Shown here: in pieces, positions 32,107 to 34,724 of the stretch | Position numbering within the stretch: position 1 is the first letter of the stretch | Layout: each line of letters opens with the position of its first letter | Assembly (NCBI RefSeq): GCF_000524475.1 | Contig: NZ_BAVQ01000016.1 | Span: 1 to 64,000, forward strand | Source: Tomitella biformata AHU 1821 | GTDB lineage: Bacteria > Actinomycetota > Actinomycetes > Mycobacteriales > Mycobacteriaceae | DNA: 64,000 bases | Direction of reading: 5' to 3' | Notes under the pieces: generated by a model | Told to the model about the DNA's origin: nothing | Seen by the model: only the letters and a program-made list of their open reading frames with translations | The model's database searches: none | Position numbers and translations under genes: made by a program

Positions 32107-32538
32107 ATGCCGAACGTCCTGATCCTCCTCGCCGCCATCGCCGTCGCCCTGGCGATCGGCTTCGCGCTGCGCGCCCGCAGCGGCCGCGTTCGTGCGGTGG
32201 CAGCGCCGCCCTCCGCCGGAGGCCAACTGCTCCGCGACGCCGGGATCAGCGCCACCGGCCCCACCATCCTGCATTTTTCCGCGACCTGGTGCGGGCCATG
32301 CGCCGCGGTGCGCCGGGTCGTCGCGAACACCACCGCCACGCTCGCTGACGAGGGCCGCACTGTGCTGGACCTAGAATTGGACATCGATGAGAACCCTTCT
32401 CTTGCAAGGGAATTGAAAGTCTTGTCACTGCCGACCACGTTCCTCTACGATGAGTCGGGCACCCTCCACCACCGCATTCCCGGCGTACCGCAGGCCAACG
32501 CACTGCTATCCGCGATGCGCCAGATTCCCCAGCCCTAA
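32107..32538 (+). CDS. thiX: Thioredoxin-like protein with N-terminal membrane anchor
   Basis: A 143-residue protein. One membrane helix (residues 2-20) is followed by a thioredoxin fold with active site ATWCGPCAAVRR (Cys at about 62 and 65) and the cis-Pro loop LSLPTTFLYD. It probably reduces disulfides at the membrane; the side depends on topology. It lies seven bases after lmeA and upstream of the sulfurtransferase operon, matching the thiX-cysA2 order of mycobacteria. Confidence 0.88.
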   Translation: MPNVLILLAAIAVALAIGFALRARSGRVRAVAAPPSAGGQLLRDAGISATGPTILHFSATWCGPCAAVRRVVANTTATLADEGRTVLDLELDIDENPSLARELKVLSLPTTFLYDESGTLHHRIPGVPQANALLSAMRQIPQP

Positions 32539-32585
32539 GCCCCCCTGCTGGCGCATTCCCAACTAATAGGGGTAACGTCGGCCTC

Positions 32586-32672
32586 GTGCAAAACCGCCCC
32601 GAGCTGATGCTCACCCGACGCCGTGCAGTAGATCTGTGCCGCCTCGCGGGCTGTTGCTGTTCCTGTCGCTGA
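32586..32672 (+). promoter_or_regulatory. Cysteine-rich leader peptide (attenuator uORF)
   Basis: A 28-codon ORF from GTG 32586 to TGA 32670-32672 encodes MQNRPELMLTRRRAVDL followed by CRLAGCCCSCR. Four of the last six codons are Cys (TGT TGC TGT TCC TGT CGC). It lies 156 bases before the DUF4395-sseA-sseC operon. Short polycysteine uORFs with LTRRR-AVDLC text control such operons in mycobacteria: ribosome stalling at Cys codons when cysteine is scarce exposes the downstream ribosome site. Too short for standard gene calling, but the residue pattern is very specific. Confidence 0.88.
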
Positions 32673-32793
32673 TCGACTCGCCACTTCTCTGGCACTTTTA
32701 GAACTGCGTGTGATCCGTCCTTCTGACGGCTCCAGTTCACCATCGACATCGATCCCGGTTTAACGCCCACCCTGGCTCATACCCACCGTGCGC

Positions 32794-32811
32794 AGCTTGC
32801 CGATCCAAGCT
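32794..32811 (+). promoter_or_regulatory. Hairpin next to the ribosome site of the sulfur operon
   Basis: AGCTTG (32794-32799), loop CCGATC, then CAAGCT (32806-32811). It ends two bases before the AGGAG at 32813-32817 of the DUF4395 gene. It could be part of the structure that hides the ribosome site when the leader peptide is fully translated. Inferred. Confidence 0.45.
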
Positions 32812-32828
32812 CAGGAGCATGTGCCGTC

Positions 32829-33302
32829 ATGGCCACATCCATCAACACCTCTTCAACCACCACCGCGCACGATTCCGCGAGGCCCCAGGTGGACGTCCGC
32901 GGCCCCCGCTTCGCCGCCTGGGTGACCACCGCCGTGCTCGCGATCGTCCTGCTGACCGGCGCCTGGTGGCTGCTGGCCGCGCAGGCCCTCGTGTTCGCGA
33001 TCGGCGCGGCACTCGGCCCGCGGCGCAGTCCGTACGGACTGCTCTTCGCGTCGCAGATCGCGCCGCGCTTACAGCCGGCCACCGAACGCGAGCCTGTCGC
33101 CCCGCTGCGATTCGCTCAGACCGTCGGCTTCGTCTTCGCGGCGGTCGGCGTGCTCGGCTACGCCACCGGCCACCCCCTACTCGGCGCTATTGCCACCGCA
33201 TTCGCGCTGGTGGCGGCGCTGCTGAACGCGGCATTCGGGTTTTGCCTCGGATGCCAGCTCTACCCCCTGATCGGCTACCTCCGGCGTATTCGGTCCGCGT
33301 AG
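32829..33302 (+). CDS. DUF4395 membrane protein
   Basis: A 157-residue protein with four hydrophobic segments (TTAVLAIVLLTGAWWLL, then LVFAIGAAL, FVFAAVGVLGY and TAFALVAALLNAAFGFC). The C-terminal GFCLGCQLYPL places a CxxC motif at a membrane face. DUF4395 proteins often neighbour rhodanese genes, so a role in sulfur transport or thiol redox is likely but unproven. ATG 32829 follows AGGAG at 32813. It is the first gene behind the cysteine leader peptide. Confidence 0.85.
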   Translation: MATSINTSSTTTAHDSARPQVDVRGPRFAAWVTTAVLAIVLLTGAWWLLAAQALVFAIGAALGPRRSPYGLLFASQIAPRLQPATEREPVAPLRFAQTVGFVFAAVGVLGYATGHPLLGAIATAFALVAALLNAAFGFCLGCQLYPLIGYLRRIRSA

Positions 33303-33325
33303 CAACACCACCCGAAAGGAAAATC

Positions 33326-34159
33326 ATGGCCCGCTCCGACGTCCTGGTCAGCACCGACTGGGCAGAGCAGAACATCAATACCGGAGGCATCGTCTTCGTC
33401 GAGGTCGACGAGGATGCCAGCGCCTACGACACCGGCCACATCGAGGGCGCTGTCAAGCTCGATTGGCGCAAGGATCTCCAGGACGCGGTCCGTCGCGACT
33501 TCCTGGACCAGAAGCAGTTCGGTGAGCTGCTCTCCGCCAAGGGCATCTCCAACGACGACACCGTCGTGCTCTACGGCGGCAACAACAACTGGTTCGCCGC
33601 CTACGCCTACTGGTACTTCAAGTACTACGGCCACCAGAACGTCAAGCTTGTCGACGGCGGCCGCAAGCGCTGGGAGCTCGACGCCCGGGCGCTGTCCGCA
33701 GACGCCGTCAACCGCCCCACCACCGAGTACGTGGCGCAGGCGCCGGACCTGAGCATCCGCGCCTACCGCGACGAGGTCATCGACTCCATCGGAGCGAAGA
33801 ACCTGGTCGACGTCCGCTCGCCCGGCGAGTTCTCCGGCGCGATCTCCGCACCGGCGCACCTCCCCCAGGAGCAGGCTCAGCAGCGCGGCCACATCCCCTC
33901 CGCTATCAACATCCCGTGGAGCGCGGCAGCCAAGGAGGACGGCACCTTCAAGTCCGACGAGGAGTTGACGGAGCTCTACGCGGCCAAGGGCTTCGACGAC
34001 GCCAAGGAGACCATCGCGTACTGCCGCATCGGCGAGCGCTCGAGCCACACCTGGTTTGTCCTCCAGGAGATCCTGGGCAAGCAGAATGTCAAGAACTACG
34101 ACGGCAGCTGGGTCGAATACGGCTCTCTCGTCGGCGCACCCATCGAAAAGGGAGAGTAA
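33326..34159 (+). CDS. sseA: Thiosulfate/3-mercaptopyruvate sulfurtransferase (SseA/CysA2-like)
   Basis: A 277-residue tandem rhodanese. The N-terminal half (DTGHIEGAVKLDW, VVLYGGNNNWFAAYAYW) is inactive. The C-terminal half has the active site YCRIGERSSHTWF with the catalytic Cys. It moves sulfane sulfur from thiosulfate or mercaptopyruvate to acceptors, serving cysteine and sulfur-cofactor synthesis. ATG 33326 follows AAAGGA. It lies 23 bases after the DUF4395 gene and four bases before sseC, so the three form an operon under the cysteine leader. Confidence 0.95.
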   Translation: MARSDVLVSTDWAEQNINTGGIVFVEVDEDASAYDTGHIEGAVKLDWRKDLQDAVRRDFLDQKQFGELLSAKGISNDDTVVLYGGNNNWFAAYAYWYFKYYGHQNVKLVDGGRKRWELDARALSADAVNRPTTEYVAQAPDLSIRAYRDEVIDSIGAKNLVDVRSPGEFSGAISAPAHLPQEQAQQRGHIPSAINIPWSAAAKEDGTFKSDEELTELYAAKGFDDAKETIAYCRIGERSSHTWFVLQEILGKQNVKNYDGSWVEYGSLVGAPIEKGE

Positions 34160-34163
34160 GAAC

Positions 34164-34469
34164 ATGTGCGGAGCACCCATCCAGTCCCAGACCCTTCCCG
34201 CCGGCGTGAACACCGAGACGGAGACCGTCATCACCGGTCGCGTCCTGGCCGCTGACGGCCAGCCCGTGGGCGGCGCGTTCGTGCGCCTGCTCGACGTCTC
34301 CGGCGAGTTCACCGCCGAGGTCGTGGCGTCGGCCACCGGCGATTTCCGCTTCTTCGCGGCCCCCGGCGCGTGGACCCTTCGGGCCCTCTCGTCCGCCGGC
34401 AACGGCGACGCCAGCATCGCCCCCGCAGCGCCCGGTGTCCATGAGACCACCGTGACCGTCGCGGCCTGA
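34164..34469 (+). CDS. sseC: DUF1416 protein SseC
   Basis: A 101-residue protein beginning MCGAPIQSQTLPAGV. A single beta-sandwich follows (ETVITGRVLAADGQPVGGAFVRLLD, GDFRFFAAPGAWTLRALS). DUF1416 proteins of this type pair with CysA2/SseA in actinobacteria and are thought to take part in sulfur metabolism. It starts at ATG 34164, four bases after sseA. The conserved Cys2 could be functional. Confidence 0.92.
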   Translation: MCGAPIQSQTLPAGVNTETETVITGRVLAADGQPVGGAFVRLLDVSGEFTAEVVASATGDFRFFAAPGAWTLRALSSAGNGDASIAPAAPGVHETTVTVAA

Positions 34470-34616: not shown

Positions 34617-34724
34617 GTGGAAATCTTCTTTACAATTCTCCTGGCCCTTACCAGTGTCCTCATCCTGTGGTTCTCGGTCTACGTGATCTACCGACTGGTC
34701 ACCAACGAGACCCCCGAGCTGTGA
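34617..34724 (+). CDS. 35-residue membrane microprotein
   Basis: A 36-codon ORF, GTG 34617 to TGA 34722-34724. It encodes [20 protein letters not shown] followed by [16 protein letters not shown] single 23-residue membrane helix with a short polar C-terminus is evident. Its TGA overlaps the GTG of the next gene (GTGA), so the two are translationally coupled. No known family. The codon use and coupling argue that it is real. The possible -10 (TATAGT, 34563-34568) upstream would give its own promoter after the terminator. Confidence 0.7.

Follow-up and report, generated by a model that had tools for sequence, protein, structure and literature searches.

We found that a short, cysteine-tailed open reading frame (ORF) of Tomitella biformata AHU 1821, located just ahead of DUF4395-sseA-sseC, is most probably (about three chances in four) a cysteine-responsive attenuator on a leaderless mRNA, in which a switch between its Cys tract and the Shine–Dalgarno (SD) site downstream would control translation of the three genes. 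The step at which attenuation acts is probably translational. What is new here is that leaders preceding different genes share the peptide motif RRxxDLxR together with a nearly fixed UGU codon nine residues past its Asp. The ORF, its family, its conservation, the constraint on its peptide and the preference for UGU were obtained from the sequence of the 64,000-nt stretch of DNA analysed here (the window) and from comparison with other genomes. The features of the locus are collected in Table 1.

The 28-codon Cys-tailed ORF proposed in a preliminary description of this DNA is real. It begins with GTG, has the sequence claimed and encodes VQNRPELMLTRRRAVDLCRLAGCCCSCR, with Cys at four of its last six codons (TGT at 32652, TGC at 32655, TGT at 32658 and TGT at 32664) and a fifth Cys at codon 18 (TGC). 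Frames of at least 12 codons with at least four Cys among the last six numbered 1 of the 1395 stop-terminated frames in the six frames of the window, and such frames occurred with a mean of 0.03 and a maximum of 1 in 30 first-order Markov controls. The TAACGT element, at its distance from the GTG, has the signature of a leaderless promoter and suggests that the transcript starts at the GTG itself. The place given to the ORF, ahead of DUF4395-sseA-sseC, was likewise borne out: the leader stop lies 156 nt before the DUF4395 ATG, and the operon genes match Pfam models. One thioredoxin-like gene and one LmeA-like gene are found 5' of the leader. Past sseC, a 35-codon ORF (34617–34721) without a Pfam match resembles a small one-helix membrane protein. 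A second open frame of 446 codons (32819–34159, ATG at 32819) spans DUF4395 in frame with sseA and is probably a side effect of the high GC content.

Table 1. Coordinates of the leader, the regulatory elements and the downstream genes in the window
Feature	Position	Strand	Remarks
TAACGT, candidate -10 element	32573..32578	+	7 nt ahead of GTG; leaderless start predicted
Leader peptide ORF	32586..32672	+	28 codons, GTG start, TGA stop at 32670; Ms5788A family
Codons for TRRRAVDLCR, conserved peptide motif	32613..32642	+	Asp16 at 32631-32633; third positions vary, residues kept
Cys tract CCCSC	32652..32666	+	peptide end CCCSCR
Cys25 codon UGU	32658-32660	+	family-wide Cys, nine residues past Asp
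5' arm of predicted closed-state helix	32659..32675	+	partner 32801-32818, SD included
C-rich spacer from leader to SD, possible Rho loading region	32673..32810	+	C 0.37, G 0.20
Hairpin AGCTTG-CCGATC-CAAGCT	32794..32811	+	predicted open-state structure
AGGAG, SD site of DUF4395	32813..32817	+	
DUF4395 membrane protein gene	32829..33302	+	PF14340, E 1.4e-46
sseA/cysA2-type rhodanese (thiosulfate sulfurtransferase)	33326..34159	+	PF00581, E 2.6e-34; name by position and kinship
sseC (DUF1416)	34164..34469	+	PF07210, E 8.3e-42

Scored with its first residue entered as M, the leader peptide reached 45.9 bits against NCBIfam NF042933 ("Ms5788A family Cys-rich leader peptide"), a narrow pass at a cut-off of 45; against the general leader model NF042934 it reached 37.6 bits (cut-off 27). 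Scores against NF042933 ranged from 36.6 to 54.9 bits for five leaders of other loci, one of which passed. The pass makes our leader an additional member of a named family, and the kinship with mycobacterial polycysteine uORFs that had been suggested for it is supported by this score, by the expected operon type downstream, by the leaderless signature and by conservation in relatives. The further claim that the gene would escape normal annotation is doubtful, because an NCBI annotation model exists and the peptide passes it. A Pfam search of six leader peptides matched no model, and a single match to a known RNA family was far below its gathering score and was taken as chance.

The Ms5788A family, which comprises uORFs before cysA2 (Msmeg_5788) in mycobacteria, is alike in profile, Cys-rich end and position at a cysA2/sseA operon, as well as in the leaderless-type start predicted for our leader, while the spacer, the tail and the predicted RNA pairing are particular to the Tomitella genome. 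For the orthologous leader before Msmeg_5788 in M. smegmatis, the available part of PMC4633059 reports ribosome occupancy and proposes a cysteine-linked role. Extracts of PMC9031893, PMC9094748 and PMC13236596 cite Canestrari 2020 for regulation by such ORFs in a cysteine-dependent manner, which PMC9031893 places in M. smegmatis. The existence of the general model NF042934 implies that the peptide motif itself had already been noticed; a fixed UGU or a role of the nascent peptide in these leaders was described in none of the titles and abstract openings of the literature searched.

A DUF4395 match was present in 49 of 61 relatives. The first comparison set held 30 DUF4395 loci (our own included, every one read), of which 25 had LTxRRxVDLxR in a short upstream frame and 28 a looser form of the pattern. 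Together with a second set of 55 named loci taken from genome contigs, a motif-bearing leader was found at 53 of 85 pooled loci (28/30 plus 25/55), two of the 53 being duplicates. Named loci with the motif include records of Rhodococcus, Nocardia, Amycolatopsis, Kutzneria, Saccharopolyspora, Frankia-type organisms and Nanopelagicaceae; by the looser pattern 30 named loci lack it, Microbacterium and Agromyces records among them, and one locus (L028) has no leader upstream of DUF4395. TANNNT stands 6–8 nt ahead of the chosen start at 50 of the 53 motif-bearing loci, and at 7 nt in 43, a count that is biased upward because starts were picked with the same criterion.

Two observations were made alongside this comparison. 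Four leaders from AT-richer relatives (L057, L058, L067 and L087) keep FTKRRVID, end only in CMC or CIC and have a TAAAAT element 6–7 nt before ATG; in these putative leaders the motif outlives the Cys run. In leaders upstream of DUF4395, the residue before the RR pair (CGA at 32616–32618 in the window), if it is Arg, is mostly encoded by CGA or CGT and never by CGC across 30 distinct sequences; CGC is the usual codon of the two Arg that follow.

Leaders of the general type also precede other genes. Our genome holds three NF042934 matches at E<0.001, two of them above cut-off (the studied leader included). One of the others, G000:C44:105942 (L033), reads VTRSVLTRRLHLDLVRVAGAACCRCRCCCC and lies before an SCO4226-like gene, which adjoins an acyl-CoA dehydrogenase-like gene with a Pfam score below cut-off; this suggests that the operon of these two genes also serves sulfur metabolism. 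A match of the same peptide to TIGR03602 (20.8 bits, cut-off 35) was ascribed to its Cys run. The third leader precedes a nitrite/sulfite reductase gene (nirA) and scores 40.7 bits against NF042936, below the cut-off of 45. Leaders of the Ms4527A family (NF042936, before nirA) and of the general model share with ours RRxxDLxR followed by Cys; they differ in that many have one or two Cys, the genes downstream are others and tract–SD pairing is mostly absent.

At least 50 of the 61 relatives gave an NF042934 match at E<0.001, at least 42 of them above cut-off. Among 198 genomes drawn across the phylum (our own and near relatives included) at least 15 did so, at least 12 above cut-off, these counts being lower bounds with at most 42 candidates scored per genome. 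None of 14 controls matched at E<0.001 among the candidates scored; when E was relaxed to 10, matches appeared in ten of these controls, none above cut-off. Another family, f18, has seven large genomes (G083, G165, G186, G219, G229, G240 and G251) with at least 4–11 matches each. For leaders ahead of other genes, 58 of 62 loci were read, the remainder being L035–L037 (10–12 bits) and L133, which lies at the same place as the L027 leader.

Pooling the DUF4395 set with the other-gene loci gave 97 distinct leader sequences, and a Cys nine residues past the Asp (Asp+9) is found in 96 of them (53/53 before DUF4395 and 43/44 before other genes), one leader (L143) being anchored on Gly in place of Asp. 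The codon of this Cys is UGU in 86 of the 96. The remaining Cys positions of the same leaders use 70 UGU versus 140 UGC, and crude long ORFs at the same loci use 152 versus 594, a ratio that gives an expectation of 26.7 UGU at the key place, to be set against the 85/95 counted before one leader (L146) was re-anchored; the 70:140 tally, as well as the within-leader codon pairs and single-Cys counts that follow, also predate this re-anchoring. Cys codons are 11 UGU versus 97 UGC in the DUF4395 genes and 13 versus 91 in the window ORFs. When Cys occurs at both Asp+2 and Asp+9, the former is UGC and the latter UGU in 46 leaders and the reverse in none, with both UGC in 8 leaders and both UGU in 2. 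A single Cys from the motif onward is seen in 19 of the 97 leaders; it is at Asp+9 in all 19 and is encoded by UGU in 18.

Because part of the pool came from a profile that includes the Cys, the count was repeated on 30 loci located by the sulfite reductase gene alone, from the same relatives and with leaders partly shared with the pool. RRH[VI]D[LFY]xR occurs in a short frame upstream of this gene at 29 of the 30 loci. Cys stands at the same distance in 27 of these 29 and is UGU in 25 of the 27, while the sulfite reductase genes themselves use 5 UGU versus 191 UGC. None of the leader counts represent independent events, because the sequences are related. Residues are kept at a fixed distance from the putative stall codon and synonymous sites are free, with L009, L134, L156 and L157 as exceptions. 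Across the leaders compared, constraint in the family falls most heavily on RRxxDLxR and one UGU at Asp+9, rather than on how long the Cys run is.

Cysteine may be sensed through a single UGU codon, decoded once a conserved segment of the nascent chain has been made, and not merely through a Cys run. With this UGU in the A site, the conserved segment would lie about 8–13 residues up the exit tunnel, and the ribosome would become unusually sensitive to the supply of Cys-tRNA or to a sulfur-dependent modification that this tRNA requires for efficient reading of UGU. The exit tunnel narrows near that distance, a single tRNA serves both Cys codons, and modification of the Cys tRNA may depend on sulfur. 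A broader proposal, which we make tentatively and at somewhat less than even odds, is that actinobacterial cysteine leaders are nascent-chain-assisted single-codon sensors in which the Cys run would be an optional amplifier and the RNA outputs would be operon-specific, the window leader being the poly-Cys version.

The same leaders can be read as plain codon-run attenuators, in which the number of Cys codons alone matters and the peptide motif is incidental, a reading that we hold possible and lean against. Leaders with at least four Cys in the tail are common in the own family, and in the nirA set two leaders, L156 and L157, have an intact motif and Cys elsewhere, with none at the key place. 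The clearest case against a strict requirement for the motif is L009, from the same genus, where three insertions (1, 1 and 4 nt) have eliminated RRxVDLCR from a diverged leader that keeps its start and its Cys-rich end in frame (tail GACCRSCR). A codon count does not, however, account for leaders with only one Cys from the motif on (19/97), for the motif at 29 of 30 regions 5' of the sulfite reductase gene, which were found independently of any leader, or for motif residues that are kept although third positions vary; the Val position uses all four codons.

The spacer of L009 is predicted to fold into a GC-rich stem with six T after it, just 5' of the SD. The intrinsic-terminator scan of this locus found none, and the mismatch and loop of the stem may exceed the limits of the scan. 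L009 may have moved to transcription attenuation or be decaying, or the change may be an error of the draft genome, whose assembly is 81% complete.

Conservation of the motif at the peptide level would also suit a trans-acting small protein for which the place before the operon is secondary. This is very improbable: across the wider family the downstream genes differ, the leaders are variable in length and at both ends, their constant feature is a place just 5' of sulfur-type genes, and NCBI models the family as a leader.

For the window leader, we infer the following course of transcript initiation, ribosome stalling, RNA switching and response to cysteine. A leaderless mRNA would start at the GTG of the leader. 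When Cys-tRNA is ample, ribosomes would clear the ORF, and the 5' arm would pair with its downstream partner and mask the DUF4395 ribosome site. When Cys-tRNA is scarce, a ribosome would halt in the tract, most critically at the Cys25 UGU according to the family comparison, and would cover the 5' arm. The hairpin ahead of the SD would then form, the ribosome site would open and DUF4395-sseA-sseC would be translated.

Folding with the leader free pairs the SD with 32660–32664 (P about 1.0) and leaves the hairpin at P 0.08. Placing a ribosome over the tract raises the predicted P of the hairpin to 0.95–0.97 and makes the SD 0.24–0.42 free, i.e., a partial opening, and we assign the hairpin to the open state because of this rise upon occupation of the tract. 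The preliminary description had placed a hairpin before the DUF4395 ribosome site; the hairpin is present, but it is predicted to form only with the tract occupied. In these foldings the SD is opened to a similar extent by a ribosome that sits on the stop codon and by a stalled one, so the switch would need a stall that outlasts termination.

The folding sets comprised 51 loci after duplicates were dropped (L042 and L090, equal to L014 and L012), 50 of them with an assignable SD (L021 has none) and 49 with a spacer long enough for shuffling; the own-family subset (n=27) was hand-picked, partly by the taxonomy of named genera. Spacers were shuffled 25 times per locus and 150 times for the window, where 5% of the shuffles reach the window's SD:tract pairing. 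Mean P(SD:tract) is 0.50 versus 0.36 for shuffled spacers at the 27 own-family loci (p 0.007) and 0.38 versus 0.29 at the 49 loci (p 0.017), the rows being related in both comparisons. Pairing of at least 0.5 is reached at 19 of 50 loci and, between tail and SD, at 9 of 39 other-gene leaders with script-assigned downstream starts; a single tract–SD helix as the family-wide output is unsupported by these counts. When tails were re-encoded synonymously (500 per locus), the median fraction pairing as well or better was 0.62, and 1 of 50 loci had a fraction of 0.1 or less. It follows that tract–SD pairing is largely a by-product of composition, and the idea that tail codons are tuned for it is unsupported.

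Pairing of this kind has a precedent in the LEU element of actinobacterial leuA, in which, according to an extract of PMC1262725, repeated copies of the sensed codon are proposed to base-pair with a downstream SD. The LEU element differs in sensing leucine and in its pseudoknot, and an experiment cited in that extract finds the Leu codons unneeded. Cys codons of a leader ORF are also the proposed sensor in uORFC-8-2 before cysS of Rhodobacterales, as described in part of PMC8632094; its tandem Cys codons are mostly UGC, it has an intrinsic terminator and it belongs to alphaproteobacteria.

No intrinsic terminator (GC-rich stem plus T run) was found in 32400–32900 of the window, which is consistent with Rho-dependent transcription attenuation as another route to the same response. 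With ample cysteine the ribosome would leave at the stop, Rho would load on the C-rich spacer and transcription would end, and a ribosome stalled in the tract would shield the spacer; the direction of the response is unchanged and the output step differs. This alternative stays live because C exceeds G in the spacers of 27/27 own-family loci, and the C-over-G bubble of the window spacer is matched by 3% of the window's 140-nt pieces. Still, an excess of C over G in the sense strand is no specific mark of Rho sites, and the predicted closure of the SD by the free leader is unneeded for Rho control. For the cys leaders of mycobacteria, Rho was put forward in 2005, and the portion of PMC1262725 available has its own authors calling the case weak and finding the sites not conserved. 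The candidate cys leaders of Mycobacterium, P. acnes and B. longum cbs in that portion resemble ours in a short ORF, a Cys run near the stop and no terminator hairpin, and differ in that the authors favour Rho-dependent termination. We consider Rho control unlikely in the window, and translational attenuation is the reading we prefer.

These results extend a known type of cysteine attenuator to one more genome. What unites leaders of sseA-type operons, sulfite reductase and other genes is one UGU at a fixed distance from the motif; the RNA output differs between them. The genomes of family f18, with many leaders before varied genes, offer a route to candidate sulfur genes of unknown function. 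If the single-codon reading is true, cysteine attenuation in these bacteria would depend in part on the nascent peptide, beyond the mere number of hungry codons.
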